Part shown: positions 36,475 to 55,283 of the stretch, in pieces | How positions within the stretch are numbered: position 1 is the first letter of the stretch | Layout: every line of letters starts with the position of its first letter | NCBI RefSeq assembly: GCF_007830055.1 | Contig: NZ_VLLE01000002.1 | Span: forward strand, 259,953 to 323,952 | Length of the DNA: 64,000 nucleotides | Source: Lacibacter cauensis | Lineage (GTDB): Bacteria > Bacteroidota > Bacteroidia > Chitinophagales > Chitinophagaceae | Direction: 5' to 3' | The notes under the pieces: model-generated | Seen by the model: the letters and a program-made list of their open reading frames with translations, nothing else | Database searches by the model: none | Told to the model about the DNA's origin: nothing | Made by a program: the position numbers and the translations under genes

Positions 36475-36505
36475 TCAACAATAACGATTCACATACGATT
36501 GCAAT

Positions 36506-37450: not shown

Positions 37451-37455
37451 GATAC

Positions 37456-38085: not shown

Positions 38086-39602
38086 TGTTGGTTGCAAAAA
38101 ACATATCGAAAAAGTTTTCGGGTGTAACGGCCTTGTCGAATGTGAACCTGGAGTTGCGTCCCGGCAAAGTAAATGCGATCATTGGTGAGAATGGTGCAGG
38201 CAAATCCACGCTCATGAAAATCCTTTCCGGCGTACATACACAGTACGAAGGCGAAATTGTTTTCAAAGATAAAGTGGTGAAGTTTACCAATACCAAAGAG
38301 GCGGAAGAAGCAGGCATTGCTATTATTCACCAGGAGTTAAATCTTGTTCCTTATTTATCTGTTGCCGAAAATATTTTTCTTGGTCGTGAGTTGATCAACT
38401 GGCTCAATATGGTGGACAGAAAACAGATGCGTGAAAAAGCAAACGCATTGCTGCAACGCCTCAACCTGAATATCGATCCCGATACAAAAATTGCAGAACT
38501 GAAAGTTGGTCAGCAGCAGTTGGTGGAAATTGCAAAAGCATTGTACACAAATGCAGAAGTGATCATTATGGATGAACCCACTTCGGCCATCAGCGATAAG
38601 GAAGTGGAGCAGCTGTTTGCCATCATCAACCAGTTAAAAGCAGACGGGAAAACCATCGCTTATATTTCGCACAAACTGAAAGAGCTGTTTTCCATAGCCG
38701 ATCGATTTGTTGTACTGCGAGATGGCACTACCGTTGATGCAGGTGATATGAACAGCGTTACACAAGACGAACTGATACAAAAAATGACGGGTCGCCAACT
38801 CAATTTGCAGAAGAGTGGTAAACTCATCAGCAATGCAGAAGAATTAATGACGGTAAAAAATATCAGCCTCAAACATCCCTTGCTGCGTTTTACCAATATT
38901 CTTACCAATGTTTCTTTTACGTTGCATAAAGGAGAGATACTTGGTGTGTATGGTTTAATGGGTGCAGGGCGTACCGAATTGATGGAATGTATTTTCGGCT
39001 TGCATCCGAAGAATTCATCAGGAGAAATAAAGATGAAAGGTAAAAGCTGCAAAATAAAAACACCTGCCGATGCCATTGCTGCAGGCATTGCGTTGGTGCC
39101 CGAAGATCGTAAACTGCACGGGCTTATCCTCAACCAGAACATCAAAACAAATATCAGCTTAACGGTTTTGAAGCAGATCGAGAAGTGGGGATTGCTGTTG
39201 AGTACGAAGAAAGAAAAAAACTTAGCCGATAATTATATCAGCCGCCTTGCCATAAAAACATCATCGGATAAAAACCTGGCAAAGAATCTCAGCGGTGGCA
39301 ATCAACAAAAAATTGTATTGGCGAAATGGCTGGCTACACATCCGCAGATTTTATTGCTTGACGAACCTACACGTGGTATTGACATCAATGCCAAAGCAGA
39401 GATTTATAAACTGATGAAAACATTGGCCGATGAAGGTATGGGTATCATCATGGTATCGTCTGAATTGCCGGAAATACTCGCCGTATCGGATCGTGTATTA
39501 GTGATGTGCGAAGGCGAACTCACCGCATCCATACCTATTGATGAGGCAACCGAAGCTGGAATATTGACATACGCCATCTACAAAAACGAACTAACAGCAT
39601 GA
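38085..39602 (+). CDS. Sugar ABC transporter ATP-binding protein (RbsA/XylG-like)
   Basis: 505 residues, two nucleotide-binding domains in one chain. Domain 1: Walker A GENGAGKSTLMKIL (about 36), signature LKVGQQQLVEIAKAL, Walker B VIIMDEPTSAIS. Domain 2: degenerate Walker A YGLMGAGRTELME (about 290), signature LSGGNQQKIVLAKWLA, Walker B ILLLDEPTRGID. The degenerate second loop is normal for RbsA-type proteins. The start ATG overlaps the DUF2291 stop (TGATG) and its stop overlaps the permease start (ATGA), so the three are translationally coupled. Confidence 0.96.
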   Translation: MLVAKNISKKFSGVTALSNVNLELRPGKVNAIIGENGAGKSTLMKILSGVHTQYEGEIVFKDKVVKFTNTKEAEEAGIAIIHQELNLVPYLSVAENIFLGRELINWLNMVDRKQMREKANALLQRLNLNIDPDTKIAELKVGQQQLVEIAKALYTNAEVIIMDEPTSAISDKEVEQLFAIINQLKADGKTIAYISHKLKELFSIADRFVVLRDGTTVDAGDMNSVTQDELIQKMTGRQLNLQKSGKLISNAEELMTVKNISLKHPLLRFTNILTNVSFTLHKGEILGVYGLMGAGRTELMECIFGLHPKNSSGEIKMKGKSCKIKTPADAIAAGIALVPEDRKLHGLILNQNIKTNISLTVLKQIEKWGLLLSTKKEKNLADNYISRLAIKTSSDKNLAKNLSGGNQQKIVLAKWLATHPQILLLDEPTRGIDINAKAEIYKLMKTLADEGMGIIMVSSELPEILAVSDRVLVMCEGELTASIPIDEATEAGILTYAIYKNELTA

Positions 39603-40579
39603 TAGCTCAACTCAAGATCGGATCTGATACGCTTAAACGGTTTCAATCGCTCATTGCCTTGCTCATTCTGTGCACGATTCTGAGCTTTATGACCGATAAA
39701 TTCTTTACAGCTGATAATGGCTTAAACGTTTTACGCCAGATAGCTGTGAACATTTGTATTGCTACAGGTATGACGCTGATTGTACTTACAGCAGGTATTG
39801 ATCTGTCTGTTGGTTCGGTGTTAGCTTTGTGCGGAGCAGTTACAGTAGGTTTGCTGCGAAACGGTGTTGAAATCCCCGCAGGCGATTTATTTGTTGGCTT
39901 TACATTGTTAGGTGCTATTCTTGGTGGATTACTTTGCGGCTGGCTGCTTGGTTGGTTCAATGGCTTTGCTATTACAAAGTTTAATGTGCCGCCGTTTGTT
40001 GCAACGCTTGCCATGCTTACCATTGCAAGAGGGTTTACCATGTTGTACACAAAAGGTCATCCCATCAGTAACCTCGGAAAAGAATTTGCATTTATTGGTT
40101 CGGGTTCTTTCCTGGGTATTCCTGTTCCGGTATGGATCGCAGCTATTGTTGTATTGCTTGCTGTTTTCATTACGCAGAAAACAAAAATGGGTCGTTACAT
40201 TTATGCTATTGGCGGTAACGAACAGGCGGCCAAACTATCAGGCATCAATATCAACAGAGTAAAAATTACCGTGTATTCCTTTGCAGGTGCATTGGCTGCA
40301 TTAGGCGGAATTATTGTTACAGCACGTTTGGATTCTGCTCAACCCAATGCGGGCATGAGTTACGAACTTGATGCCATTGCAGCAGTGGTGATTGGTGGTA
40401 CATCGTTAAGCGGTGGCAAAGGAAGTGTGTGGGGCACCGTTATGGGCGCAGTTATTATTGGTGTGCTCAACAATGGCTTGGTGTTGCTAAATGTATCTCC
40501 GTTCTGGCAGCAGGTAGTAAAAGGTGGGGTGATTTTGTTAGCGGTGATCATTGATAAAGCCGGAGAGAGGAGGGATTGA
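39599..40579 (+). CDS. Sugar ABC transporter permease (RbsC/XylH-like)
   Basis: 326 residues with about eight to ten membrane helices. Family motifs: VNICIATGMTLIVLTAGIDLSVGSVLALCGA, in part GMTLIVLTAGIDLSVG (about 60), FNVPPFVATLAMLTIARG, the EAA-like AIGGNEQAAKLSGININ loop (about 205), and AAVVIGGTSLSGGKGSVWGT. Forms the inner-membrane channel of the pentose-type importer. Overlaps the ATPase gene by four bases. Confidence 0.96.
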   Translation: MIAQLKIGSDTLKRFQSLIALLILCTILSFMTDKFFTADNGLNVLRQIAVNICIATGMTLIVLTAGIDLSVGSVLALCGAVTVGLLRNGVEIPAGDLFVGFTLLGAILGGLLCGWLLGWFNGFAITKFNVPPFVATLAMLTIARGFTMLYTKGHPISNLGKEFAFIGSGSFLGIPVPVWIAAIVVLLAVFITQKTKMGRYIYAIGGNEQAAKLSGININRVKITVYSFAGALAALGGIIVTARLDSAQPNAGMSYELDAIAAVVIGGTSLSGGKGSVWGTVMGAVIIGVLNNGLVLLNVSPFWQQVVKGGVILLAVIIDKAGERRD

Positions 40580-40602
40580 TTTGACAAATACAATAATAGT
40601 GT

Positions 40603-40672
40603 CGCACAGATAACACCGATTTGCACAGTATGAAAATCTGGATTCATCTGCGCAATCTGTGAGGAAAAATAA
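40603..40672. repeat. CTGTGAG dispersed repeat before the FGGY kinase gene
   Basis: CGCACAGATAACACCGAT, then ATTCATCTGCGCAATCTGTGAG in part ATCTGCGCAATCTGTGAG, then GAAAAATAAAAA directly before the ATG at 40676. Related to 33799-33860 and 53662-53722. Confidence 0.6.
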
Positions 40673-40675
40673 AAA

Positions 40676-42160
40676 ATGGCTATGAAATTTATACTTGCAA
40701 TTGATCAGGGAACCAGCTCTACCAAATCACTCATCTTCGATGAACAAGGACAGGCTGTTGCCAAAGGTTCCGAAAATTTACATACGCATTATTTCGGCGA
40801 TGGTTTTGTTGAACAGGAACCGGAAGTCATCTATCAAAATGTATTGGCTTCGGTTGCAAAATGTTTGCAGGACTTTACAGGCAAAGGTCATGAGACAACT
40901 GCAATTACAGGCATTGGTATTTCCAACCAGCGGGAAACATTTGTAGTGTGGGATAAAAGCGGAAAGCCATTGCATAACGCCGTGGTATGGCAATGCAAAC
41001 GTTCGGTGCAGATTTGTGAAGAGCTGAAACAACAAGGTTTGTCTCAACTGGTGAATGCGAAAACAGGTCTGGTGATCGACCCTTATTTCTCAGCAACCAA
41101 ACTCATCTGGCTTAATCAGAATAACGAAGCTGTAAAGAATGCTATTGCAAAAGGCGAAGCCTGTTTCGGCACAGTTGATACCTGGTTGTTGTACAAAATG
41201 ACCAATGGAAAAAGCTATGCAACTGATTATACCAATGCATCAAGAACCTTGCTGTTCAATCTGCATTCACTTGAGTGGGATGAAGAGCTGATCAATGCAT
41301 TCGGTTTAACAGGAATACAACTGCCGGAAGTAGAATCATCTGCTGCAGTATTTGGTGAAACAACATTGGGTGGGTTGTTTGCACAGCCTGTTCCCGTTGC
41401 AGCTATGATCGGCGATTCGCATGCAGCAGCATTTGGCGAAGGTTGTTTTGAAGCTGGTACAGCCAAGGCAACTTTGGGTACGGGCTGCAGTATTCTCATG
41501 AACATTGGTGATAAACCGGTGCAATCGAAAAACGGAATGGTCACTACTATTTGCTGGAGTATCGATGGACGTATTGATTACGCATTGGAAGGCGTAATCG
41601 TAAGCTGCGGTGCAACCATCGAGTGGTTAAAGAATGAACTGAGCTTATTTGGCGACAGTAAAGAAACAGAAGCCATGGCAACAGCTGTTGCTGATAATGG
41701 TGGCGTGTACCTTATTCCGGCCTTCAGCGGATTAGGTTCACCACATTGGCAAATGGATCGTAAAGCGTCCATCGAGGGCATTAGTTTCGGTACAACAAAA
41801 AATCATATCGTAAGAGCAGCACTGGAATCAATTCCTTACCAAATAAAAGATGTGATGAGTGCTATGCAAGCCGATGCAACAGTGAATTTAAAAAGCATCA
41901 ACATCAACGGTGGAATTTCAGGAAATCGTTTTGTGATGCAAATGATTGCCGATCTGCTGCAGATTAATATTACCCGTTCGGCAGTAGCCGATGCATCTGC
42001 ATTGGGGGCTGCTTTTTTAGCCGGACTCGGAACCGGGCTGTTCAACGGTCTTGATAGGTTGAAAGCGTCTATCGCTGTTGATACAACCTATCAACCCAAC
42101 GCCGAAACAAAATTGCAGGACTTTTATCAGCAATGGCAAACGATCATTCAGCATTCCTGA
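40676..42160 (+). CDS. FGGY family carbohydrate kinase (candidate apulose kinase)
   Basis: 494 residues. Phosphorylates a sugar with ATP. Seen: phosphate-1 motif ILAIDQGTSSTKSLIFDEQG (N-terminus), GISNQRETFVVWDK and VWQCKR (glycerol kinase/xylulokinase-like), GDSHAAAFGEGCFEAGTAKATLGTGCS in part GTAKATLGTGCSILMN, and the FGGY signature region NINGGISGNRFVMQMIADLL with ADASALGAAFLAGLGTG. Sequence looks between glycerol kinase and xylulokinase. As last gene of the isomerase block it likely acts on the ketose made by the isomerase. Substrate not proven. Confidence 0.88.
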   Translation: MAMKFILAIDQGTSSTKSLIFDEQGQAVAKGSENLHTHYFGDGFVEQEPEVIYQNVLASVAKCLQDFTGKGHETTAITGIGISNQRETFVVWDKSGKPLHNAVVWQCKRSVQICEELKQQGLSQLVNAKTGLVIDPYFSATKLIWLNQNNEAVKNAIAKGEACFGTVDTWLLYKMTNGKSYATDYTNASRTLLFNLHSLEWDEELINAFGLTGIQLPEVESSAAVFGETTLGGLFAQPVPVAAMIGDSHAAAFGEGCFEAGTAKATLGTGCSILMNIGDKPVQSKNGMVTTICWSIDGRIDYALEGVIVSCGATIEWLKNELSLFGDSKETEAMATAVADNGGVYLIPAFSGLGSPHWQMDRKASIEGISFGTTKNHIVRAALESIPYQIKDVMSAMQADATVNLKSININGGISGNRFVMQMIADLLQINITRSAVADASALGAAFLAGLGTGLFNGLDRLKASIAVDTTYQPNAETKLQDFYQQWQTIIQHS

Positions 42161-42376: not shown

Positions 42377-42820
42377 ATGTTTATACAGAAGTATTTCGAG
42401 GAGTTTCAATTAAACGATGTTCGCCAAACCAAGGGTCGAACCATCACCGAAACCGATATTGTGATTCACGCCGGTCAGTCAGGCGATTTCTTTCCCCATC
42501 ATATGGATGAAGAGTGGTGCAAAAGCCAGCCGTTTAAAAAGCGCATTGCACATGGCACCCTCATTTTTACAGTAGCCATTGGTTTAACCGCCGATTTTGT
42601 AAACGAGGTAAGCATGACCTATGGTTACGAACGGTTACGATTTATTAAACCTGTATTTATTAACGATACCATTAAGGTAACGGTAACCATAAAAGATTTG
42701 AAAGACCACAAAAAGCCGGAGTACGGTTTAGTAACGGAGTTAGTGGAATGTTTTAACCAGCACAACGAATTGGTGATGTTGTGCGAACATATTCTCATGG
42801 TTAAAAAAGGAAACAGTTAA
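42377..42820 (+). CDS. MaoC-like hot-dog dehydratase/hydratase
   Basis: 147 residues from the ATG at 42377 ([14 protein letters not shown]); an upstream TTG at 42365 is less likely. Single hot-dog fold with the R-hydratase active-site pattern: [28 protein letters not shown] (D and H in [12 protein letters not shown], about 40) and [15 protein letters not shown]. Such enzymes add or remove water on acyl-CoA thioesters. Next gene starts after 2 bases. With two CoA-transferases in the same operon it likely handles a CoA ester of the pathway's acid; the substrate is unknown. Confidence 0.88.
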
Positions 42821-42822
42821 GA

Positions 42823-43974
42823 ATGGAACGAATTATTCTGAATGGTATTACATGGGGACACAGCAGGGGTATAACGCCTCTGCTTGCTGTTTCCCAACGT
42901 TATTCCGAATTACACCCCAATGTGGAGATACACTGGAAAAAACGTACACTCCAGGAGTTTGCTGATTTTCCGATTGAAGAATTGACGAAGGAATATGATC
43001 TGCTCATCATCGATCATCCCTGGGTGGGCTGTGCCGATGCCACAAATTGTGTTCTGCCGCTGAACGAATATTTATCAGATATTTATTTAAGAGATCAACA
43101 GGAAAATTCTGTTGGTCTTTCGCATAACAGCTACAACTACAACAATAAACAATGGGCCTTGGCCATTGATGCAGCAACACCCGCAGCCAGTTACCGGAAA
43201 GATTTGTTGAATGATGTGCCGCAAACATGGAGCGATGTGCTGTCGTTAGCGAACGAAGGAAAAGTAGCAGTACCTGCTATTCCTATCGATCTGCTCATGA
43301 ACTTTTATACGTTTTGTATTGCACATGGTACAGAGCCTTTTCAGAGTGAAGAGGAGGTGATTGATGCAGCAACAGGCATCCTTGCCATTGAAACCATGAA
43401 GGAGTTGTACAGTGTGGTAGATGAAAAGATGTTCAGCTGTAACCCTATTGCAGTGGCAGAGTTAATGAGTACAACCAACGATTATGTCTATTGTCCGTTT
43501 GCGTATGGTTATTCTAATTATGCACGCAAAGGATATGCACCACATTTATTGCATTATGCCGATGTGGTTACGTTCAACGAAAAAAAACTGCGGACAACAA
43601 TTGGCGGAACAGGGCTTTCTGTTTCTGCCTTTGGTAAGCACAAAGATGTAGCGGTAGATTTTGCTGCGATGGTTGTATCGGGCGAATGTCAAAGTACCAT
43701 GTATGTGCAACACGGCGGCCAACCAGGTCATCGCAGTGCATGGACAGATCCGACAGCCAATCATTTAACCAATTACTTTTTTACGCAGGTGTTACCGGTA
43801 ATGGAGAATGGGTATATGCGTCCACGTTACAATGGTTATCTGCATTTTCAGGATCATGCAGGCGATCCCTTGCAGCATTGTTTGCTGCACGATACCGATC
43901 CGCAAAAAGCACTCGATGCTATGAACACTATTTACGAACAGAGTTTAGCTAAACAAACAGCTTTCACCGCATGA
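42823..43974 (+). CDS. Solute-binding-protein-fold protein without signal peptide
   Basis: 383 residues. It resembles family 1 extracellular solute-binding proteins: NGITWGHSRGITPLLAVSQR, YDLLIIDHPWVGCAD, LNEYLSDIYLRDQQ, WALAIDAATPAASYRKDLL, PQTWSDVLSLANEGK, QHGGQPGHRSAWTD. Yet the N-terminus (MERIILNGITWGHSRG) goes straight into the first beta strand, with no signal peptide, no lipobox and no membrane segment; no upstream in-frame start exists because MaoC ends 2 bases before. No permease or ATPase is adjacent. It may be a cytoplasmic binding protein or an enzyme on this fold, as in MqnA, MqnD and porphobilinogen deaminase. Its stop overlaps the next start by 4 bases. Confidence 0.8.
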   Translation: MERIILNGITWGHSRGITPLLAVSQRYSELHPNVEIHWKKRTLQEFADFPIEELTKEYDLLIIDHPWVGCADATNCVLPLNEYLSDIYLRDQQENSVGLSHNSYNYNNKQWALAIDAATPAASYRKDLLNDVPQTWSDVLSLANEGKVAVPAIPIDLLMNFYTFCIAHGTEPFQSEEEVIDAATGILAIETMKELYSVVDEKMFSCNPIAVAELMSTTNDYVYCPFAYGYSNYARKGYAPHLLHYADVVTFNEKKLRTTIGGTGLSVSAFGKHKDVAVDFAAMVVSGECQSTMYVQHGGQPGHRSAWTDPTANHLTNYFFTQVLPVMENGYMRPRYNGYLHFQDHAGDPLQHCLLHDTDPQKALDAMNTIYEQSLAKQTAFTA

Positions 43975-45116
43975 TGAACTTACCCTTACAAGGAATTGTA
44001 GTGCTGGAGTTTTGCCAATATTTATCCGGTCCATCGGCATCCTTGCGTTTGGCCGATCTTGGTGCACGTGTCATCAAAATTGAACGGCCGGGCACAGGCG
44101 ATGCTGGTCGTAAACTGGCCATTAAAGATTTGTGGGTGGATGACAGTTCGTTGTTGTTTCATACCATCAACCGGAATAAAGAAAGTTTTACAGCCGATCT
44201 GAAGAACGAAGAAGATAAGGCTGTGTTGTATAAATTAATTGCAAAGGCCGATGTGCTCATTCATAATTTCCGTCCGGATGTGATGGGGAAAAACGGATTG
44301 GATTATGCAACAGTGCAGCAGCTTAATCCAAAGTTGGTGTATGCAGAAATTTCCGGCTATGGTAAGAAAGGACCGTGGAAAAATAAGCCTGGTCAGGATT
44401 TGTTGGTACAATCAATGGCAGGGCTTGCATATACAACTGGTAACGGCAGTAACGGTCCGGTGCCTTTTGGTATTTCCATTACCGATATTATGGCGGGTTC
44501 GCAATTGGTGCAGGGAATATTAGGTGCACTCATCCGCAGACAAAAAACAGGAAAAGGAGCGTTGATTGAAGTGAGCCTGCTGGAATCGTTACTCGATTTT
44601 CAATTTGAATTACTCACAACCTATTTTACCAGCAAACAGCAACCAAAGCGGAGTGTACTTGCAAATGGTCAGCCATTGTTAGGTGCTCCCTACGGCATTT
44701 ATCAAACAGCTGATGGATACCTGGCTTTGGCTATGATGGATCTTCATCAGTTAGCCGATACCATTGGTTGTGCCGGTTTGAAAAATTTTGCAAAAGAAGA
44801 TGCATTTGCAAAGCGAGATGACATCAAACGACTGTTGGTCGATCATCTTGTAACGAAGGAAACAAACTTTTGGTTGGGCTTATTACAGGATGCAGGTTTG
44901 TGGGCAATGGAAGTAATGAACTGGGACGAATTGACAGAACATGAAGCCTACCGTGTATTGCAAATGGAGCAGGAGATAACAGTAAACAACCGTGCAATCA
45001 GCACAACACGTTGTCCCATCCGTATTGATGGCGAATTGTTGTTAAGTACAAAACCTGCACCGCAGTTGGGGGAACAGAATGAGGCGATACGGAGAGAGTT
45101 GGTAGCCGGTAGTTGA
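43971..45116 (+). CDS. CaiB/BaiF family (class III) CoA-transferase, copy 1
   Basis: 381 residues. Moves CoA between acyl groups. Seen: LEFCQYLSGPSASLRLADLGARVIKIERPG in part LRLADLGARVIKIERPG, HTINRNKESFTADLKN, LIHNFRPDVMGKNGLDY, EISGYGKKGPWKNKPGQDLLVQS with the likely catalytic Asp in PGQD (about 142), and a closing STTRCPIRIDGELLLS. Translation is coupled to the preceding gene by an ATGATG overlap. Paralogue of the next gene. Could work alone or as a pair with it. Confidence 0.92.
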   Translation: MMNLPLQGIVVLEFCQYLSGPSASLRLADLGARVIKIERPGTGDAGRKLAIKDLWVDDSSLLFHTINRNKESFTADLKNEEDKAVLYKLIAKADVLIHNFRPDVMGKNGLDYATVQQLNPKLVYAEISGYGKKGPWKNKPGQDLLVQSMAGLAYTTGNGSNGPVPFGISITDIMAGSQLVQGILGALIRRQKTGKGALIEVSLLESLLDFQFELLTTYFTSKQQPKRSVLANGQPLLGAPYGIYQTADGYLALAMMDLHQLADTIGCAGLKNFAKEDAFAKRDDIKRLLVDHLVTKETNFWLGLLQDAGLWAMEVMNWDELTEHEAYRVLQMEQEITVNNRAISTTRCPIRIDGELLLSTKPAPQLGEQNEAIRRELVAGS

Positions 45117-45127
45117 TAGTGTTTAGT

Positions 45128-45325
45128 TTGATGTTTATGATTTATAGTTAAATGTTATGCGTAATGGGTTACGAGTGGATCAGCATCGTTATCCCCTCTT
45201 GGGAGGTGCGCAAACTGCAACACAGAGGAGTGATAAACAGGGGTGGGTTAATTGATGAGTAATGAATAATGGATAGTGAGCGTGTTCTTCATTCACAATT
45301 AACCATTGACCATTCACAAAAAAAC
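45128..45325. repeat. Mosaic of dispersed repeats between the two CoA-transferase genes
   Basis: Contains GTTATGCGTAATGGGTTACG (family of 22819), the TTATCCCCTCTTGGGAGG...ACAGGGGTGGGTTAAT unit at about 45194-45254 (family of 15361), and GAGTAATGAATAATGGATAG with ATTAACCATTGACCATTCAC at 45257-45320. Stop-to-start distance is 212 bases in an operon where other junctions are a few bases, so the mosaic looks inserted. Confidence 0.55.
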
Positions 45326-45328
45326 AAA

Positions 45329-46498
45329 ATGAAACTTTTAGAAGATATATTGATCATTGATTTCAGCCAGTTCCTTTCGGGGCCATCTGCAGCATTACGT
45401 TTGGCCGATATGGGAGCAGAGGTGATCAAAGTGGAGCGTCCGGGTACCGGCGATATTTGCCGGGAGCTGTATGTGAGTGATGTGATGATCGAAGGCGAAT
45501 CAACCATTTTTCATGCCATCAACCGCAACAAAGAAAGTTATGCGGCCGATCTGAAAAATCCGGATGATCTGTTTAAAATAAAACAACTTATTGCAAAGGC
45601 CGATGTGGTGATGCACAATTTCCGTCCGGGAGTAATGGAACGCATCGGGCTCGATTATGCAAGTGTAAAACAGATCAAACCCGATATTGTATATGCAGAG
45701 ATCAGCGGTTATGGCACCGAAGGTCCGTGGAAAGATTTACCCGGACAGGATCTGTTGTTGCAATCAGCGTCGGGTTTAACATGGCTCAGCAATAACATTC
45801 ATGAAAGCCCTACACCCATGGGTGTGGCTGTGGTAGATATTATGGCCGGTACACATGTGGCACAGGGAATTTTAGCCGCATTGTTCCGCAAAGGACAAAC
45901 AGGCGAAGGTGCGTTGGTGCAGGTAAGTATGCTGGAAAGTATTTTAGATTTTCAGTTTGAAGTATTGACCTGTTATTACAACGACGGACGGCAGTTACCC
46001 GTTCGTGGGGCGGTAAACAGTGCGCATGCTTACATTGCGGCGCCCTATGGTATTTATAAAACAAATGATGATTACATTGCATTGGCAATGACCAATATTC
46101 CAACATTGGCCGGATTACTGCAGTGTGAACCGTTGAAGCTATTTTCGAACAGCAACGATTGGTTTGCTAAGCGTGATGAGATCAAAGCCATACTGGCAAA
46201 ACATCTTTCAACACAATCGGCACAACATTGGCTGGCAGTATTGGAAAGTGCAGATGTTTGGTGTGCTCCCGTAATGGATTATGATGCATTGGTAAAACAG
46301 GAAGGCTACCGTGTGCTGGAAATGGAGATCAATGTAAAAACAGGCAACGGACTAACGGTAAGCACCACCCGCTGTCCGATAAGAGTAGACGGAGAATTGT
46401 TGGTATCAGAAAAAGGTGCGCCAACATTGGGCGAGCATAACGAACAGATCGAACAACAGTTTGGATTAACTTCTCACTTAGAAAGTGTAAGTAAATAA
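45329..46498 (+). CDS. CaiB/BaiF family (class III) CoA-transferase, copy 2
   Basis: 389 residues from the ATG at 45329 (MKLLEDILIIDFSQFLSG); upstream in-frame codons are repeat DNA. Same motif order as copy 1: FLSGPSAALRLADMGAEVIK, HAINRNKESYAADLKN, MHNFRPGVMERIGLDY, GPWKDLPGQDLLLQS (Asp in PGQD, about 142), AAPYGIYKTNDDYIALAM, STTRCPIRVDGELLVS. The two copies align end to end without large gaps. Either homologous subunits of a heteromer or two transferases with different acyl donors. Confidence 0.92.
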   Translation: MKLLEDILIIDFSQFLSGPSAALRLADMGAEVIKVERPGTGDICRELYVSDVMIEGESTIFHAINRNKESYAADLKNPDDLFKIKQLIAKADVVMHNFRPGVMERIGLDYASVKQIKPDIVYAEISGYGTEGPWKDLPGQDLLLQSASGLTWLSNNIHESPTPMGVAVVDIMAGTHVAQGILAALFRKGQTGEGALVQVSMLESILDFQFEVLTCYYNDGRQLPVRGAVNSAHAYIAAPYGIYKTNDDYIALAMTNIPTLAGLLQCEPLKLFSNSNDWFAKRDEIKAILAKHLSTQSAQHWLAVLESADVWCAPVMDYDALVKQEGYRVLEMEINVKTGNGLTVSTTRCPIRVDGELLVSEKGAPTLGEHNEQIEQQFGLTSHLESVSK

Positions 46499-46508
46499 GG
46501 CTTTGCCA

Positions 46509-47363
46509 ATGACACAGATGATTGCGGATACACATGTTCATATATGGGACTTTCACCGTGCGGAATATGCATGGCTGAAAAATAATACCAGTATTCTCAA
46601 TCGTACTTACGCAATAGAAGAACTCGAAACGTCGAGGATAGCAGCCGGAGTAACTACAGGCATACTCGTTCAGGCCGCTAATAATTTTGAAGATACAGAC
46701 TGGATGTTGCATGTGGCAGATAACACATCATGGATCGCCGCTATTGTGGGATGGTTGCCTTTAACCGATCCGGATGCAACATTAAAAGCACTGCAAAAAA
46801 AATACGGCAAAGAAAATTATTTCAAAGGCGTTCGTCATTTAATACATGATGAACCTGATGCACAATGGTTGTTGCAACCGGAAGTGATCAACAGTTTGCA
46901 CATCTTAGCCGACCATAATATTCCTTACGATGTAGTAGGCATTTTGCCCGAACATATTGAAACAGCATTGGAAGTTGCCAATAAAGTACCGCATTTGAAA
47001 ATGGTGTTCGATCATCTCAATCAACCACCCATTGCAACAAACGAACAGTTTGGACGATGGGGTGATCTGATGAAAGAAGCGGCACAACACGCAAACTTTT
47101 ATGCAAAGATTTCCGGTTTGGGTACCACTTCGCAAAAAGGCGAGAGCTGGGCGGCAGACGATATAAAACCGTATGTAGCTTTTGTGTTGGAGCTTTTCGG
47201 CACCGATCGTTGTTTTCTTGGTGGCGATTGGCCCGTGTCGTTGCTTGCAGGCAGTTACACCGGCGCCTGGAAAAATTACCGCACTGTTATTGATGAATTG
47301 TTGCCTGCAGAGGAACGTTCAAAAATTTATTATCATAACGCAGCAAACTTTTATTCGTTTTAA
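46509..47363 (+). CDS. Amidohydrolase, COG3618 (sugar lactonase-like)
   Basis: 284 residues from the ATG at 46509. TIM-barrel metal hydrolase: ADTHVHIWDF (HxH, residue about 7), YFKGVRHLIHDEPD, LKMVFDHLNQPP (His about 178), FYAKISGLGT, and CFLGGDWPVSLLAGSY (Asp about 242). Close in pattern to L-rhamnono-, L-fucono- and galactaro-lactonases, which open sugar lactones to acids. The oxidoreductase at 48524 could make the lactone and RhaT could import the sugar, which fits an oxidative sugar route. Substrate unproven. Confidence 0.85.
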   Translation: MTQMIADTHVHIWDFHRAEYAWLKNNTSILNRTYAIEELETSRIAAGVTTGILVQAANNFEDTDWMLHVADNTSWIAAIVGWLPLTDPDATLKALQKKYGKENYFKGVRHLIHDEPDAQWLLQPEVINSLHILADHNIPYDVVGILPEHIETALEVANKVPHLKMVFDHLNQPPIATNEQFGRWGDLMKEAAQHANFYAKISGLGTTSQKGESWAADDIKPYVAFVLELFGTDRCFLGGDWPVSLLAGSYTGAWKNYRTVIDELLPAEERSKIYYHNAANFYSF

Positions 47364-47380
47364 ACCATCTGCAAAAGTGT

Positions 47381-48418
47381 ATGGAAGTAATTAACGGCGT
47401 TTTGTTTCATGCAGTAGGTGCTTCCAGCGCTTCACTCTGCTATACTCCACAGAAAAAAGTTAAAGGCTGGAGCTGGCAAACCTATTGGCTGGCGCAGGCA
47501 GCGGTATGCTGGTTGTTGTTACCATTGTTTGTTGCATGGTTAACCATACCGCAGCTGGCAACGGTGTTGAAAGAGGCACCGGTAAGCGCTATGCAGCGTA
47601 GCTTCTTTTTAGGGATGGCTTATGGTATTGGTGGCACTGCATTTGGTATTGCTATCCGTTATGTTGGGTTCTCATTAACGTACGCCATTTCAGTAGGCAT
47701 CAGTTGTGTGTTGGGTACGTTGTTACCTCCATTGGTTAGCGGTACTTTGGGCGATGTGTTATCGGGTACTGGTGCCGGCTATCTCATCAGCGGTGTAAGC
47801 ATGGGCGCATTTGGTATTGCAGTATGCGGCTTAGCCGGGCGCAGTAAAGAAAAAGATATTGAGCAGCAGGAGAAGAAAGAATCCGTTTTTTCATTGGCAA
47901 AAGGATTACCGCTTTGTTTGCTGGCAGGTGTATTATCCGCATTGTATGGTTATTCGTTAAACCAGGGACAGCCCATTGCCGATGTTGCAGCAAAATATGG
48001 TGCAGGAAGTTTTCAGGGAAATGTGATCTATATTTTTTCCAACACAGGTGCTTTTATCACAACAATGATCTATTGCATCTACCTGCATCGAAAAGAAAAA
48101 ACTTTTGCAGAGTATGCATCAACAGGTGAAGCCGGTTTAGGGTTGAATTATGTAATGGCTATTTTAACCGGTCTGTTGTGGTATGGACAGTTTTTCTTTT
48201 ACGGGCTTGGCCACGTACGCATGGGGAAGTTTGAATTCAGCAGCTGGGCTATTCACATGATCATGCTCGTGTTGTTAAGTGCTCTAACAGGATTGTTATT
48301 GAAAGAATGGAAAAGCAGCAGCAGTAAAACAATCCGTTTACTTTCTGTTGCCATTGTGATATTGATTACAGCCGTATTGCTGTTAACCTACGGAAATAAA
48401 TTAGGAGCGGAAGTTTAA
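47381..48418 (+). CDS. rhaT: RhaT-like sugar/proton symporter
   Basis: 345 residues, about ten membrane helices. Sequence pattern of the L-rhamnose/H+ symporter: ASSASLCYTPQKKVKGWSWQ near the N-terminus (RhaT SF..PxKKVKxWSWE), FLGMAYGIGGTAFGIAIRYVG, VGISCVLGTLLPPLVSG, and ANTGAF-like IYIFSNTGAFITTMIYC. Inner membrane. Suggests import of L-rhamnose or a similar 6-deoxy or methylated sugar released by the GH78 rhamnosidase downstream. No rhaA, rhaB or rhaD is seen in the window. Confidence 0.88.
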   Translation: MEVINGVLFHAVGASSASLCYTPQKKVKGWSWQTYWLAQAAVCWLLLPLFVAWLTIPQLATVLKEAPVSAMQRSFFLGMAYGIGGTAFGIAIRYVGFSLTYAISVGISCVLGTLLPPLVSGTLGDVLSGTGAGYLISGVSMGAFGIAVCGLAGRSKEKDIEQQEKKESVFSLAKGLPLCLLAGVLSALYGYSLNQGQPIADVAAKYGAGSFQGNVIYIFSNTGAFITTMIYCIYLHRKEKTFAEYASTGEAGLGLNYVMAILTGLLWYGQFFFYGLGHVRMGKFEFSSWAIHMIMLVLLSALTGLLLKEWKSSSSKTIRLLSVAIVILITAVLLLTYGNKLGAEV

Positions 48419-48427
48419 AATAATACT

Positions 48428-48512
48428 TCGTGAACTTTGTGTGTTTTCTCTTTGTGTCCTTTGTGTTATAAAGAACACAAGGAACACAAAGACTTCACAA
48501 AGACCACAAGCG
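48428..48512. repeat. CTTTGTG inverted repeat before the Gfo/Idh/MocA gene
   Basis: CTTTGTGTCCTTTGTGTT (from about 48450) and AACACAAGGAACACAAAG (to about 48491) form a long hairpin with a 6-base loop; further ACTTTGTG and CACAAAGACC words flank it. The same CTTTGTG words appear inside 58545-58590. Confidence 0.65.
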
Positions 48513-48523
48513 ATTAAGAAAAT

Positions 48524-49594
48524 ATGTCAATGCACGAACGGGATATCGCCTCTGCACAATTGCCCATTTACATTATCGGGGCAGGCGGCATTGTGAATGC
48601 TGCACATTTACCTGCCTATATGCTGGCAGGTTTTCATGTGCAGGGTATTTGCGATCTCGATCCGGAGAAAGCAAAAACAACAGCTGAGCGTTTTGGTATT
48701 AAACAAGTATTTGCAAGTCCCGAAGAGTTGTTGAAGGATTTACCTGCAAATGCAGTTATCGATATTGCAGTGCCCGGACCAGCATTGATTCCATTGCTGG
48801 AACAATTACCCGATGGAGCTCCGGTGTTATTGCAAAAGCCGATGGGTGAGGATATGGATGCAGCAAAGAAAATACTTGCGATCTGTAAACGAAAAAACCT
48901 AAAAGCAGCAGTCAACTTTCAACTACGTTATGCTCCCTTCATTCTCGAAGTAAAACGGATGATGAATGAAGGATTGTTAGGTGAGATTAATGATATAGAA
49001 GTAAACGTGAATGTATACACGCCCTGGCATCTGTGGGATTTTTTAATGGCCTCGCCTCGTGTAGAAATTTTGTACCACAGCATTCATTATATCGATCTGG
49101 TACGGCATATACTCGGCAATCCGAAATCGGTGTATGCGAAATCGACCAAACATCCGAGCATGCCTGCACTGGCATCGGTACGCAGTAATATCATTATGGA
49201 TTATGGTGATATGATCAGGGCAAATATTCTCACCAATCATTGTCACAATTACGGTACACCCAAACAACAATCCTACATCAAGTTCGAAGGAACAAAAGGT
49301 GCTGTCATTATCAACTTTGGGGCACTCATCAATTATCCCCGTGGCGAAGCCGATAGTTTTGAATATGTGTTTTTAGAAGAAGGCAAAGAGCCGCAATGGC
49401 AGGAAAAGAAAATCGAAGGCAGCTGGTTTCCCCATGCGTTTATCGGAACCATGGAGCAGGTAATGCTGGCAGCTGCAGGAAAAATTGAAAAACCGGATAA
49501 TGCAGTGGAAGATTGTTTGTACACGATGGCATGCACAGAAGCCGCCTACATGAGTTGCCAGCAGGGCGGTATTCAACTCAACCAACTCGTTTGA
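48524..49594 (+). CDS. Gfo/Idh/MocA family oxidoreductase
   Basis: 356 residues. NAD(P)-dependent sugar oxidoreductase: Rossmann motif IYIIGAGGIVNAAHLPAY (about 14), VICDL-like GICDLDPEKAKTTAERFGI, LLQKPMGEDMDAAKKIL (the family EKP lysine motif, here QKP, about 105), and the catalytic-helix HSIHYIDLVRHILGNP (about 188). No export signal. In this operon it may oxidise the imported sugar to a lactone for the COG3618 protein. D-apiose dehydrogenase of published apiose routes also belongs to this family, so apiose is an alternative substrate. Confidence 0.9.
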   Translation: MSMHERDIASAQLPIYIIGAGGIVNAAHLPAYMLAGFHVQGICDLDPEKAKTTAERFGIKQVFASPEELLKDLPANAVIDIAVPGPALIPLLEQLPDGAPVLLQKPMGEDMDAAKKILAICKRKNLKAAVNFQLRYAPFILEVKRMMNEGLLGEINDIEVNVNVYTPWHLWDFLMASPRVEILYHSIHYIDLVRHILGNPKSVYAKSTKHPSMPALASVRSNIIMDYGDMIRANILTNHCHNYGTPKQQSYIKFEGTKGAVIINFGALINYPRGEADSFEYVFLEEGKEPQWQEKKIEGSWFPHAFIGTMEQVMLAAAGKIEKPDNAVEDCLYTMACTEAAYMSCQQGGIQLNQLV

Positions 49595-49612: not shown

Positions 49613-51004
49613 ATGAACAAGCACTTATACATTTTACTTACCTTTTTTATTTTTTCGCAGCAGTTATTTGCACAGCAGGTTGCGTTTCCCGGTGCCGAAG
49701 GTTTTGGGAAATATGCAACAGGTGGAAGAGGAGGAAAAGTAATTGCCGTTACAAATCTGCATGATAGTGGTGAAGGAAGTTTCCGCTGGGCATTGGAACA
49801 ATATCCCGGCGAACCGTTGACGGTTGTATTTGCAGTATCAGGAATTATCGAACTGCAATCAAAAATTCAGATCAAACGTTCCAACTTAACCATTGCCGGA
49901 CAAACAGCTCCCGGCGATGGCATCTGTTTAAAAAATCAATCACTCATTTTAAATGGTGCTTCTTCAAAAGGTAATCATGGTAATATCATTATCCGTTTCA
50001 TTCGTTCACGTCCCGGTGGTACGTTGAAAACAGGATTGTATGGTTTTGATATGGAGAACTGTCATGATGTAATTGTTGATCATTGCAGTTTCAGCTGGGC
50101 CAATGAAGAATGTGCGGCGATGTACGATACAAAGAATGTAACGGTACAATGGTGTATAGTGAGTGAAGGTTTGTACGAAGCCGGTCATCAGAAAGGACAT
50201 CGTTCGTATGGCGGTGTATGGGGCGGGCAATATGCTTCTTATCATCATAATTTATTAGCACACCTTAATAGTCGTGCTGTTCGGTTCAATGGAGCAAGAG
50301 CACATGATACCATTGCGTTGATCGATTACCGCAATAATGTTATTTACAACTGGGGCAATGCCAATGCAGCTTATGGCGGCGAAGTGAATATTGCAGGCGG
50401 AGTATCGCAAGTGAATATCGTTAACAACTATTACAAACCCGGTCCTGCAACTGCTGCTGAATTAAAATTTGTCAATGCTTCTTATCAAAAAGAAAACGGC
50501 AAAGGAACAGGACAATGGTTTGTGGAGGGTAATATCATGGAAGGCGATAAGGGATTAACGAAAAAAAATACGAATGGTGTTGACCTGCAGGCACAGGGTT
50601 ATCCTACAGGAGCAATTGCTGATAAGGCGTTTGCTGTAAGTATCGCATTACCTGTTGAAACAGCAAAAGAATCATACGAGAAAGTGTTGCGTTATGCAGG
50701 TGCAATCTTCCCCAAGCGTGATGCAACTGATGAACGTGTGGTAAACGAAACAAAAACGGGAACTGCAATGGGCAAAGGTGTATTTGGTAAGCCCGGCATT
50801 ATTGATAGTCCGTTAGCAGTTGGAGGCTGGGCCGAGTATAAAACTGCAGTTGTACCAGTTGATACAGATAAGGATGGCATGCCCGATGCATGGGAAATAA
50901 AAAAAGGATTGAATCCAAATGATGCCAACGACCGCAACAAAGTGGACGCAAGCGGTTATACCATGCTGGAAATTTATTTAAACGAATTAGTGGAAGTGAA
51001 ATAA
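49613..51004 (+). CDS. Secreted pectate-lyase-like protein with C-terminal calcium motif
   Basis: 463 residues. Signal peptide MNKHLYILLTFFIFSQQLFAQ (in part LLTFFIFSQQLFAQ). Right-handed beta-helix from about 22 to 330: AFPGAEGFGKYATGGRGG, VTNLHDSGEGSFRWALEQ, IAGQTAPGDGICLKN, RFIRSRPGG, VDHCSFSWANEE, AHLNSRAVRFNGARAHD. The C-terminus holds DTDKDGMPDAWEIKKGLNP, a thrombospondin-type-3 or dockerin-like calcium repeat. Probably cleaves homogalacturonan or a related pectin backbone. First enzyme of the pectin block, 18 bases after the oxidoreductase, and related to the partial gene at 1-723. Confidence 0.88.
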   Translation: MNKHLYILLTFFIFSQQLFAQQVAFPGAEGFGKYATGGRGGKVIAVTNLHDSGEGSFRWALEQYPGEPLTVVFAVSGIIELQSKIQIKRSNLTIAGQTAPGDGICLKNQSLILNGASSKGNHGNIIIRFIRSRPGGTLKTGLYGFDMENCHDVIVDHCSFSWANEECAAMYDTKNVTVQWCIVSEGLYEAGHQKGHRSYGGVWGGQYASYHHNLLAHLNSRAVRFNGARAHDTIALIDYRNNVIYNWGNANAAYGGEVNIAGGVSQVNIVNNYYKPGPATAAELKFVNASYQKENGKGTGQWFVEGNIMEGDKGLTKKNTNGVDLQAQGYPTGAIADKAFAVSIALPVETAKESYEKVLRYAGAIFPKRDATDERVVNETKTGTAMGKGVFGKPGIIDSPLAVGGWAEYKTAVVPVDTDKDGMPDAWEIKKGLNPNDANDRNKVDASGYTMLEIYLNELVEVK

Positions 51005-51005
51005 C

Positions 51006-53657
51006 ATGAAGCAGTTTTTTTTCATCATATCATTATTTGTTTGTTCAATCCTGTCAGCGCAAGTGAAGATTGAGAACAAACAAGTTTCATCAAGAACAAA
51101 GTTTGGTGAACAGCGATTGAATGCAACCATTGCACAGTTAAAACTGAATACGGTAAAGCACAGCATTGTTCTCAGTAAACAGGCAACCGGTAAGAAAGAA
51201 GGGTTCTCAATTGAAACAAAAAATAACAGCACTACTATTATAGGTAATGATGAGTCAGGAATTTTATACGGCTGTTTAGCTTTTGCTGATGAATTAAAGA
51301 AAACAAAAAAGTTTCCTGTTACTTATTCATTCAGCGATGCACCCGAAATGGTCTTGCGTGGTGCATGTATCGGTGTACAGAAACCGTACTACCTCCCCGG
51401 AAGAAATGTGTATGAATATCCTTACACACCCGAAACCTTTCCCTGGTTTTACGATAAAAAATTATGGATACAATATCTCGATTCAATGGTAGCGAATCGC
51501 ATGAACTCTTTGTATCTCTGGAATGGTCATCCATTTGCATCGTTAGTGAAGCTGAAAGATTATCCGTATGCAGTGGAAGTAGATGAAGCAACATTCAAAA
51601 AGAATGAAGAGATCTATCGCTTTTTAACAACAGAAGCAGATAAGCGTGGCATCTGGGTGATCCAGATGTTTTATAATATCATCGTCTCCAAACCTTTTGC
51701 TGAACATCATAAGATCAAAACACAGGAACGTGAACGTCCCATCATTCCTCTCATTGCTGATTATACACGTAAATCCATTGCAGCATTCGTAGAAAAATAT
51801 CCAAACGTTGGCTTAATGGTTTGTTTGGGTGAAGCAATGGAAGGTGTGGGTAATGATGATATAGAATGGTTCACTAAAACAATTATTCCCGGCGTAAAAG
51901 ATGGTTTGAAAGCATTGAATAAAATAGAGGAGCCGCCCATCGTTCTGCGTGCACATGATACGGATGCACCTGCTGTGATGCGTGCTTCCTTACCACTCTA
52001 TAAAAATTTATATACCGAAGCAAAGTTCAATGGTGAAGCCTTGACCTATGCACGGCCAAGAGGGACATGGGCAGAGTTGCATCAAACATTGAGCAGACTC
52101 GGCAGTGTGCAAATTGAGAACGTACATATCCTTGCCAATCTTGAACCGTTTCGTTATGGCTCACCTGATTTTATTCAGCAGAGTGTAATTGGTATGCATG
52201 AAGTGATGGGCGGTAACGGTTTACATTTATATCCGCAGGCATCTTATTGGGATTGGCCTTACAGTGCTGATAGTGTAAAAGGCAAACGTTTATTGCAAAT
52301 AGAAAGAGACTGGATCTGGTACAGCGCCTGGAGCCGTTATGCATGGAAAGCAAAACGTAACCGTGATGAAGAGATCGTTTACTGGAGTAAACAATTCGCA
52401 GCAAAGTTTGGTTGCAGTGAAGCAGATGGCAGAAGAATATTAACAGCATATGAAGAGAGTGGTGAGATTGCTCCAAAGCTGTTGCGTCGTTTTGGTATTA
52501 CGGATGGTAACCGTCAAACATTGACATTGGGTATGTTGATGACGCAACTCATCAATCCATTCCGTTATGGATTATTCACTTTGTTGTATGATGCGGAAGC
52601 ACCGGAAGGAGAAATGATATTGGATTATGCAGACAAACAACAGAAAGGAATAAAGCATATTGGTGAAACACCACCACAAGTCGCTAATGAAGTGGTGTTA
52701 CATGGTAACAAAGCTGTTGCAGCTATCATGGAAGTATCGAGAAGAGTGACGAAAAATAAAGAAGAGTTCAACCGCATTGTCAACGATATGTACTGTTACA
52801 AAGCAATGGCCGATCATTTCAGCAGTAAAGTAAATGCTGCAGTGCAATTGCTGAAATACAAATACAGCGGTAATGTTGCTGATCTTGAGTTGGCAGTACC
52901 CATGCTGGAAAAAAGTGTAAACGATTACAAAGAACTGGCTGCTTTAACTGCAGGTTCATACCTCTATGCCAACAGCATGCAAACACAGCAGCGGAAAATT
53001 CCTATGCGTGGTTCAAACGCAACGTTTAAACATTGGACAGAGATGGTGCCGGTATTTGAAACCGAGCTAAAGACGTTTAAATACAAGATTGATTCTCTCA
53101 CAAACAGGTCCAACACAAAGGTGCAGGATCGTAAGCCATTTTTACAGGTGGATGCAAAGTTGAATCATGTTCCGGTTGTATTGAACGAAGGTGCACAACT
53201 TTTCAGCGATACAGGTTTTCGCATTAAACAACTTCCGTCTGAATTGAAGGGAATGAAAGCTGTACAGTTAAGTTACAGACAACAGTTGCGAAGCGCTACC
53301 GAAATTGATTTTTATACCGATAAGCCGGTAAAAATATTGGTGGGATATTTCAGAACACAGCGTGCAGCTTTCACGACAGATACTGTATTCGCCAAAGCAC
53401 CTGAGTTGGAAACAAATGCCAGTGCTGATGATTACGGCCAGGCCGAAATAAAAATTTCCAATGCTATAGCGATTGACGGTATGCCACCGGTGAACATTCA
53501 CAGTTATACATTCAAAGCGGGTTCACATACATTAAAGTTACCCAAAGGAGTTTGCTTAGTGTTGGGATTTGTTGATGGTACACAAATTATTCCTGTGTAC
53601 GATGCGATGCTGATGAGCGATGCAAAGAATAAAAATATTGATTGGTTATTTGAATAG
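51006..53657 (+). CDS. Secreted GH67/GH115-like glycoside hydrolase (alpha-uronidase type)
   Basis: 883 residues. Signal peptide MKQFFFIISLFVCSILSAQ (in part FFFIISLFVCSILSAQ). Residues 20-115 look like the N-terminal beta/alpha domain of GH67, GH115 and GH20 enzymes (IIGNDESGILYGCLAFADEL). From 120 to about 450 a TIM barrel: LRGACIGVQKPYYLPG, NRMNSLYLWNGHPFASLV, GIWVIQMFYNIIVSKPFAEHH, VGLMVCLGEAMEGVGNDD, ANLEPFRYGSPDF, YPQASYWDWPYS. A helical region and a C-terminal beta-sandwich follow. Likely removes an alpha-linked uronic acid (galacturonic or glucuronic) from pectin; the exact family is not certain from sequence reading alone. Confidence 0.7.
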   Translation: MKQFFFIISLFVCSILSAQVKIENKQVSSRTKFGEQRLNATIAQLKLNTVKHSIVLSKQATGKKEGFSIETKNNSTTIIGNDESGILYGCLAFADELKKTKKFPVTYSFSDAPEMVLRGACIGVQKPYYLPGRNVYEYPYTPETFPWFYDKKLWIQYLDSMVANRMNSLYLWNGHPFASLVKLKDYPYAVEVDEATFKKNEEIYRFLTTEADKRGIWVIQMFYNIIVSKPFAEHHKIKTQERERPIIPLIADYTRKSIAAFVEKYPNVGLMVCLGEAMEGVGNDDIEWFTKTIIPGVKDGLKALNKIEEPPIVLRAHDTDAPAVMRASLPLYKNLYTEAKFNGEALTYARPRGTWAELHQTLSRLGSVQIENVHILANLEPFRYGSPDFIQQSVIGMHEVMGGNGLHLYPQASYWDWPYSADSVKGKRLLQIERDWIWYSAWSRYAWKAKRNRDEEIVYWSKQFAAKFGCSEADGRRILTAYEESGEIAPKLLRRFGITDGNRQTLTLGMLMTQLINPFRYGLFTLLYDAEAPEGEMILDYADKQQKGIKHIGETPPQVANEVVLHGNKAVAAIMEVSRRVTKNKEEFNRIVNDMYCYKAMADHFSSKVNAAVQLLKYKYSGNVADLELAVPMLEKSVNDYKELAALTAGSYLYANSMQTQQRKIPMRGSNATFKHWTEMVPVFETELKTFKYKIDSLTNRSNTKVQDRKPFLQVDAKLNHVPVVLNEGAQLFSDTGFRIKQLPSELKGMKAVQLSYRQQLRSATEIDFYTDKPVKILVGYFRTQRAAFTTDTVFAKAPELETNASADDYGQAEIKISNAIAIDGMPPVNIHSYTFKAGSHTLKLPKGVCLVLGFVDGTQIIPVYDAMLMSDAKNKNIDWLFE

Positions 53658-53661
53658 TCTC

Positions 53662-53722
53662 TTACAGATTTCATAGAGCAGCACAGAAAAAATCTGTGTA
53701 TATCAGTGGCATCTGTGAGCAA
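53662..53722. repeat. CTGTGAG dispersed repeat before the GH28 gene
   Basis: CTTACAGATTTCATAGAGCA, AAAATCTGTGTATATCAGTG and CATCTGTGAGCAAAAATGAA; the ATG of the GH28 gene lies within or right after the last A run. Related to 33799-33860 and 40603-40672. Confidence 0.6.
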
Positions 53723-53724
53723 AA

Positions 53725-55281: not shown

Positions 55282-55283
55282 TG

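Follow-up and report, generated by a model that had tools for sequence, protein, structure and literature searches.

A conserved gene set joining CoA-transferases and a signal-less binding-protein homologue to oxidative sugar genes in Lacibacter cauensis: a candidate CoA-dependent side pathway for a plant cell-wall sugar

Why would an operon equipped for the oxidation of a sugar also encode CoA-transferases, a thioester hydratase and a solute-binding protein without an export signal? The question is raised by seven plus-strand genes at positions 42377-49594 of a 64,000-nucleotide stretch (the window) from the soil bacterium Lacibacter cauensis, which has a 4.95-Mb Bacteroidota genome whose nearest named relative is Lacibacter luteus (91% identity for the binding protein). 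The genes encode, in order, a MaoC-type protein, the solute-binding protein homologue (SBP), two family III CoA-transferases (CaiB1 and CaiB2), a COG3618-type lactonase, a RhaT homologue and a Gfo/Idh/MocA oxidoreductase (Gfo), all above the Pfam cut-off in their assigned families. This inventory and its coordinates agree with the original prediction, in which a sugar acid, or a dehydrated product of it, is activated as a CoA ester and then hydrated. We read the module as a side route for a single aldose of the plant cell wall, which would be oxidised and then handled as a CoA ester, with a probability of roughly 0.45, that is, somewhat short of an even chance. The reactions, the substrate and the role of SBP proposed below are predicted from gene content, conservation, neighbours, folds and motifs.

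SBP, CaiB, MaoC and Gfo recur as a conserved unit in Bacteroidota and Bacillota, and related sets occur in Pseudomonadota, Actinomycetota and Acidobacteriota; most of these loci have sugar genes nearby. SBP is present in 19 of 395 Bacteroidota genomes and in 7 of 14 genomes of its own genus. A contig scan returned at least 509 relatives, the best 80 of which were kept and include Chitinophagaceae, Flavobacterium, Mucilaginibacter, Paenibacillus, Cohnella, Alicyclobacillus, Microbulbifer and Acidobacteriota, and 145 of 72,556 plasmid records, among them Sinorhizobium, Shinella, Azospirillum and Streptomyces, carry more distant relatives. For a census of neighbours, the open reading frames (ORFs) of 98 loci (L022-L039 and L051-L130; L024/L090 and L026/L125 are the same genomes twice) were clustered, the five own-genus loci L046-L050 being left out, and matches were counted anywhere in the locus on either strand. 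SBP, through which the loci were found, is the most constant member (98), followed by CaiB (88), Gfo (77), MaoC (74), the lactonase (61), RhaT (40), a FucP-like transporter (33), a second signal-less SBP (SBP2; 31) and a galacturonidase (22). The predicted link between CoA genes and oxidative sugar genes is thus borne out by comparative genomics across several lineages. As a separate observation, SBP occurs without CaiB or MaoC in the sequence covered, near an SSF transporter, in L076 (also in L075, L085 and the short L078 and L080), and L076 additionally carries enolase-superfamily, UxuA-type, RraA-type and PhyH-type genes by Pfam.

The packing of the first three genes was correctly described, with a 2-base gap between MaoC (end 42820) and SBP (start 42823) and a 4-base overlap of SBP (end 43974) with CaiB1 (start 43971). 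The same overlap is found in 51 of the 81 same-strand SBP-CaiB neighbours counted at other loci, which argues that the packing is not due to chance and that the SBP gene is coupled to CaiB. The two CaiB genes do not pack as closely, about 210 bases (45117-45328) lying between them if CaiB2 starts at 45329; at other loci, 57 of 82 CaiB-CaiB neighbours lie within 30 bases or overlap, and the other 25 are 54-322 bases apart, as judged from mechanical starts.

With regard to SBP, a protein of 383 residues, its AF2 model (pLDDT 90.1, pTM 0.87) has MalE3 as best PDB match in Foldseek (TM 0.82; 0.76-0.84 over the 16 best matches), and it shares the fold of the cluster-D sugar-binding proteins of ABC transporters (MalE3, LpqY and SmoF). 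Unlike these, it has neither a signal sequence nor a cognate permease in the operon, and its gene overlaps that of a CoA-transferase. The lack of a hydrophobic N-terminus, claimed for this protein at the outset, extends to its relatives: over 103 ORFs with the GITWxH motif, some genomes being counted twice, the 11-residue mean hydropathy close to the N-terminus peaks at 1.68, compared with 3.16 for an RbsB-type protein that is exported (at 36506). Neither an export signal nor a permease in the operon, as would be expected of an ABC-transporter binding protein, was found. No other protein of the genome matches PF01547 at E 0.001, so SBP is no leftover of a second transporter of this family.

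SBP is probably a cytosolic protein that binds a sugar acid or a CoA ester and catalyses one step of the pathway. Alternatively, but in our view somewhat improbably, it is not an enzyme and acts as a cytosolic sugar-acid binder, be it a carrier, a sensor or an allosteric partner of CaiB. The cluster-D fold would suit such a binder, as would the database matches: the 35 PDB matches of an SBP profile, and the 50 structural matches listed out of 1710 (E up to 10), are all binding or transporter proteins or parts, maltose-binding-protein fusions aside. However, in an alignment of 14 diverse relatives the columns are on average 66% identical and 98 of them are invariant, with several His, Arg, Asp and Trp among these, a pattern which we judge unusual for a transport SBP, and the protein is more constant than MaoC or Gfo, although the loci were found through it. 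Cytosolic enzymes with the periplasmic-binding-protein fold exist, namely, MqnA/MqnD, prephenate dehydratase and dihydroxyphthalate decarboxylase.

In the pathway that we propose, the sugar would be imported by RhaT, oxidised at C1 to the lactone by Gfo and opened to the aldonate by the COG3618-type protein. CaiB, here the CaiB1/CaiB2 pair, would then place CoA on the aldonate, probably drawn from the CoA ester of the product. As the thioester would acidify the C2 proton, MaoC (crotonase at other loci) could eliminate the C3 hydroxyl, performing on the CoA ester the task that enolase-, IlvD- or UxaA-type dehydratases carry out on the free acid. The 2-keto-3-deoxy-type acid released might finally be broken down, by way of a diketo stage, by the short-chain dehydrogenase (SDR) and the FAH-type hydrolase (FAH) of an L-fucose-type route, SBP acting as a cytosolic binder or enzyme within the CoA part. 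The original prediction had the CoA ester hydrated; dehydration is more likely as the reaction of MaoC, because an aldonyl-CoA is saturated and would first need to lose water, and because at one locus (L023) the CoA genes run together with SDR and FAH, with no dehydratase.

The motifs of the front enzymes are well kept. The GxDWP motif is kept in 66 of 67 lactonases and the KP motif in 79 of 82 Gfo sequences. The lactonase reaches 151 bits against the L-fucono-1,5-lactonase family NF052480 (cut-off 400), with which it shares the superfamily, and 4dlf is its only PDB match at E 1e-10. The RhaT homologue matches the Pfam family and scores at best 319 bits against the equivalog NF010024 (cut-off 468), while Gfo has no PDB match at E 1e-15.

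Apart from CaiB1 and CaiB2, the genome has no PF02515 match. The PGQD motif of CaiB1 is kept in 59 of 59 relatives, and the P[GA][QFY]D motif of family III CoA-transferases, whose Asp we take to be the catalytic residue, in 175 of 177 CaiB sequences. The GDF[FY]PHH motif, which places MaoC in the (R)-hydratase superfamily, occurs in 76 of 86 MaoC sequences, the remainder including MaoC' paralogues. In these paralogues (L091:7243-7749 and relatives), the catalytic His position seems to be replaced (MDLHPYV instead of GDFFPHH), and MaoC' may be an inactive partner of MaoC. The PDB entry nearest to MaoC is 4ffu (E 8.8e-48). This protein, almost the same as the MaoC of a Sinorhizobium meliloti cluster (L147:14768-15229), was deposited as an 'oxidase', a name that is probably misleading.

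The same enzymes could act on some unrelated small acid in a CoA pathway of the itaconate, mesaconate, oxalate or carnitine type, with sugar genes adjacent by chance, a proposal that we find extremely improbable. A CoA-transferase followed by a hydratase is indeed the layout of mesaconate activation and hydration (PMC5592240). However, the matched NCBIfam equivalogs score well under their cut-offs: CaiB1/CaiB2 give 218/201 bits for succinate-glutarate (cut-off 750), 205/194 for oxalate (522), 159/176 for mesaconate (700) and 94/79 for carnitine (413), and the score for the RipB/Ich family of RipABC-type itaconate degradation is 49.1 bits (340). Furthermore, PF03328, the HpcH/CitE-type CoA-ester lyase, has 0 matches in this genome, a control search being positive in 10 of 14 named genomes, and the sugar genes co-occur in several phyla. 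The itaconate, mesaconate, oxalate and carnitine routes were therefore rejected, and membership in a known itaconate, mesaconate or carnitine pathway, named at the outset as a refutation, is not supported.

The replacement of module genes by others was followed in 78 named loci with enough flank (REPLACEMENTS), 10 short loci being excluded and 6 alphaproteobacterial and 23 further loci standing outside the count. Among the 65 loci with CaiB and Gfo, 40 have only the lactonase on the same strand and 21 only SBP2, with both in 0 and neither in 4. Among the 74 loci with CaiB, MaoC alone is found in 63, crotonase alone in 6, both in 2 and neither in 3; Gfo is found in 65, aldehyde dehydrogenase (ALDH) without Gfo in 3, and neither in 6 at the thresholds used, although two of these six have a more distant annotated Gfo nearby. 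The core is thus not regularly found away from sugar genes. Read as analogous enzymes, the replacements would lead from aldose to aldonate by Gfo with lactonase, Gfo with SBP2, or ALDH, then to the CoA ester and on to a (de)hydratase. The mutual exclusion of lactonase and SBP2 is a consistent pattern, not a proof, and SBP2 perhaps replaces the lactonase in opening the lactone in other lineages. A much wider version of the pathway, which we hold to be doubtful, would make SBP a binding-protein fold turned cytosolic sugar-acid enzyme and the module a general CoA-dependent alternative to metal-dependent dehydratases in at least five phyla, with SBP2 in place of the lactonase elsewhere, opening modified pectic sugars, O-methylated fucose for instance, to catabolism.

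The crotonase loci also bear on a different chemistry, in which the CoA ester is cut between C2 and C3, as in hydroxycinnamoyl-CoA hydratase/lyase, to a small hydroxyacyl-CoA and an aldehyde, the aldehyde is oxidised by Gfo with lactonase or by ALDH, and CaiB recycles the CoA; SBP could then be the lyase. Crotonase and ALDH do stand beside SBP-CaiB-CaiB in four loci (L030, L032, L121 and L126), and they resemble known pairs of CoA-lyase and ALDH. Nevertheless, we consider this cleavage unlikely: the sets of transporter, dehydrogenase and lactonase, and a mutarotase-family gene beside Gfo, indicate that the imported sugar itself is oxidised, and the terminal FAH and SDR fit a 2-keto-3-deoxy product better.

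That proposed end of the pathway, elimination followed by SDR and FAH, is drawn from module loci in other genomes. In L023, a same-strand run comprises MaoC-SBP-CaiB1-CaiB2-Lact-RhaT-Gfo-MaoC'-SDR-FAH, without dehydratase; in Flavobacterium-type loci FAH is in a divergent run. Within the genus, the genomes with FAH are exactly those 7 of 14 that carry SBP. In Alphaproteobacteria, relatives of Gfo and MaoC share an IclR-linked cluster with genes for a sugar ABC transporter and for a member of the L-rhamnose-mutarotase family. Except in Thalassospira, an SDR comes next in these clusters, then L-fuconate dehydratase (three), FAH (one) or both (S. meliloti ml66). In the latter, where Gfo and MaoC are 42.5% and 53% identical to the window proteins, Gfo-MaoC-SDR-FAH are contiguous with L-fuconate dehydratase beside them. 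The CaiB-SBP pair adjoins the IclR or lactonase gene, and lies 12 kb away in S. meliloti. Streptomyces and Variovorax have an uninterrupted row of CoA-transferase, SBP, crotonase and FAH, the SBP being only 30-33% identical. The S. meliloti cluster may be SMb21101-SMb21113 with an L-fucose ABC transporter. In PMC3454389, SMc02774 is named as the L-fucose-binding protein, which speaks against the cluster as the only L-fucose system of that species.

The genome of L. cauensis has its own copy of this end on the same contig, at about 680 kb, where FAH (64-65% identical to the query) and SDR (61%) lie with a FucP homologue, a lactonase, a RhaM-type mutarotase, an alpha-L-fucosidase and a UxaA-type dehydratase, a cluster which, by its predicted gene content, is an L-fucose-type oxidative route. 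It is adjoined by an L-rhamnose-type locus (RhaI 67%, aldolase/dehydrogenase 41%, RhaT 35% and an FGGY kinase). The claim that no aldolase or sugar-acid dehydratase is present thus stands for the operon and fails for the genome. Likewise, L-rhamnose and L-fucose, both put forward initially as candidate substrates, appear to be served by these separate loci (L158/L159), which weakens either as an obligate substrate and makes a modified or related pectic sugar more likely.

What sugar would that be? The setting of the module points to pectin. We compared 20 module regions with 20 hand-placed control regions of the same genomes, and the resulting contrasts are flattering, since most queries were taken from module neighbourhoods and 9 of the 20 regions are from one genus: GH28 is found in 10/20 vs 0/20, any listed plant-polysaccharide glycosidase or lyase in 17/20 vs 3/20, SDR in 9/20 vs 1/20, and FAH in 8/20 vs 0/20, 7 of the 8 belonging to one genus, including the query source. 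Judged from neighbours only, the substrate is likely an L-fuco/galacto-configured or O-methylated pectin sugar that ordinary dehydratases refuse, 2-O-methyl-L-fucose being the best single, if weak, guess. To our knowledge, the intracellular breakdown of the rarest pectic sugars (2-O-methyl-fucose, 2-O-methyl-xylose, aceric acid and L-galactose) is largely open, and the spread of the module, with its defined enzymes, makes the matter testable. If our reading is true, it would also give a function to the solved structure 4ffu and to a large set of proteins whose current annotation is that of transporter subunits. In other respects, the crotonase/ALDH version of the module in Microbulbifer (L121 and L126) lies near enolase-superfamily genes, and in L121 also near a sulfatase (PF00884), a setting that suggests a galactan-derived sugar.

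Several observations weigh against the proposed pathway. In ten loci (L038, L075, L076, L078, L080, L081, L085, L089, L097 and L111), several of them short or ending near SBP, there is no CaiB in the sequence covered, which weakens a strict SBP-CaiB partnership. L-fuconate dehydratase is annotated in four alphaproteobacterial module records, so that the CoA steps are no simple substitute for it. The replacement pattern has its exceptions: Croceibacterium counts among the four loci with neither lactonase nor SBP2 because its SBP2-like gene lies on the opposite strand, and L039, outside the count, carries both crotonase/ALDH and MaoC/Gfo. On a tree of 118 SBPs, the lactonase/SBP2 pattern amounts to only 3 changes, and an independent-pairs sign test (p 0.25) cannot reach significance. 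The co-occurrence of FAH and SBP may reflect lifestyle, RhaI being found in the same 7 genus genomes plus 2, and the product acceptors SDR and FAH lie about 360 kb from the window, with none inside it. GH29 is not enriched (2/20 module vs 2/20 control regions), so the L-fuco assignment draws on weak neighbour evidence. Finally, the highest-scoring promoter-like site of the region (10 of 12) is at 45113-45141, the left edge of the CaiB1-CaiB2 gap, and CaiB2 onwards may therefore carry its own promoter; no terminator-like site was listed in this gap. The scan is largely uninformative, with 16 promoter-like sites vs 24.3 in shuffles and 11 terminator-like sites vs 9.8, and Bacteroidota promoters differ from the type scored. 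With regard to the ordinary L-fucose enzymes, a survey of 395 Bacteroidota found no clear link to SBP either way: S. meliloti-type L-fuconate dehydratase (E up to 1e-60) occurs in 3/19 genomes with SBP vs 16/376 others, L-fucose isomerase (PF07881) in 1/19 vs 15/376, and neither has a match in the L. cauensis genome.

The operon is flanked by further sugar genes. Upstream, at 29288-42160, are found a DeoR regulator, a fucose-isomerase C-terminal-domain gene, a Sde182-type protein, split transketolase halves, an apiosidase-like PF13204 glycosidase, a ribose-type ABC transporter and an FGGY kinase passing a GlpK subfamily cut-off. In the light of what Carter 2018 reportedly describes, this is a probable D-apiose-type operon. 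Part of the set is common to L. luteus (L051); next to the module of four further members of the genus (L047-L050) it was not seen. Downstream, 49613-61990 is probably a rhamnogalacturonan II (RG-II) degradation cluster, with the enzymes listed in Table 1 as well as GH95 and a GH2 whose best match is NF049877 (1414.9 bits, below the cut-off of 1800); we take NF049877 and NF049878 to be RG-II chain-A enzymes.

The upstream operon invites the thought that the module is a branch of D-apiose/D-apionate catabolism feeding 3-oxo-isoapionate to OiaK and OiaX. In six loci of three lineages (L098, L104, L109, L119, L122 and L128), an OiaX-like (RuBisCO-like) protein, an OiaK-like kinase and PF01177-type genes join the module, and in L104 an apiosidase-like gene (PF13204, 54 bits) precedes SBP. 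We nevertheless regard this branch as very unlikely: the OiaX-like proteins score 454 and 517 bits and the OiaK-like kinase 470 (cut-offs 700), six loci are a minority, several rare sugars occur in pectin so that linkage may arise by habitat, and the apionate oxidoisomerase route is not known to need CoA. We know of no role for PF01177 in apionate-type catabolism.

Table 1. Features of the operon and of the downstream flank, in positions of the window.
Feature	Positions	Strand	Evidence and remarks
MaoC-type hydratase/dehydratase	42377..42820	+	ATG 42377, mechanical ORF from 42365; PF01575 83.9 bits; GDFFPHH
Signal-less SBP-fold protein, cluster-D type	42823..43974	+	PF01547 (SBP_bac_1) 38 bits
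CaiB1, family III CoA-transferase	43971..45116	+	PF02515 (CoA_transf_3) 322 bits
CaiB2, family III CoA-transferase	45329..46498	+	likely ATG 45329, mechanical ORF from 45269; PF02515 324 bits
COG3618-type lactonase	46503..47363	+	PF04909 (Amidohydro_2) 140.9 bits
RhaT-family sugar/proton symporter	47381..48418	+	PF06379 193.8 bits
Gfo/Idh/MocA oxidoreductase, probable aldose 1-dehydrogenase	48524..49594	+	PF01408 (46.7 bits)/PF02894
Pectate-lyase-like gene	49613	+	by eye; no Pfam match
Alpha-D-galacturonidase	51006-53657	+	NF049878 1438.9 bits, above the cut-off of 1300
GH28	53725-55281	+	PF00295 174 bits

How does the module compare with known systems? A description of it was not found in the open-access literature, as far as titles and abstract openings go. 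The itaconate CoA route likewise pairs a CoA-transferase with a hydratase, and the D-apiose/D-apionate routes, whose OiaK/OiaX-like genes adjoin the module in the six loci above, reportedly share a front of Gfo dehydrogenase and lactonase and have no CoA step. The mesaconate CoA route (PMC5592240) has the same logic of CoA-transferase and hydratase; unlike the itaconate and mesaconate routes, the module is tied to sugar oxidation genes and reaches no cut-off of their families, and its genome has no CitE/HpcH match. CoA activation of a sugar acid had been presented at the outset as an unfamiliar route, yet it is not new in itself, since it has already been proposed for deoxyribonate in Klebsiella michiganensis, via deoxyribonyl-CoA and with a CoA-transferase taking part (PMC6365646). 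That route uses a CoA-synthetase, a beta-hydroxyacyl-CoA dehydrogenase and a thiolase, so that the enzyme families following activation differ from those of the module, and the terms 'MaoC' and 'solute-binding' do not occur in the main text of that source.

The oxidative L-fucose route comprises a dehydrogenase, a COG3618 L-fucono-1,5-lactonase, a fuconate dehydratase, an SDR and an FAH-type hydrolase. The module has the lactonase and transporter families in common with it, and the SDR and FAH end lies beside the module in several genomes; in contrast to that route, the run in L023 has CoA-transferases, MaoC and SBP and no dehydratase, and in L. cauensis the L-fucose-type locus, with its UxaA-type dehydratase, is separate from the module. 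The module is real and conserved, and we propose it as a variant of oxidative sugar catabolism in which the cytosolic SBP could prove to be new biochemistry.

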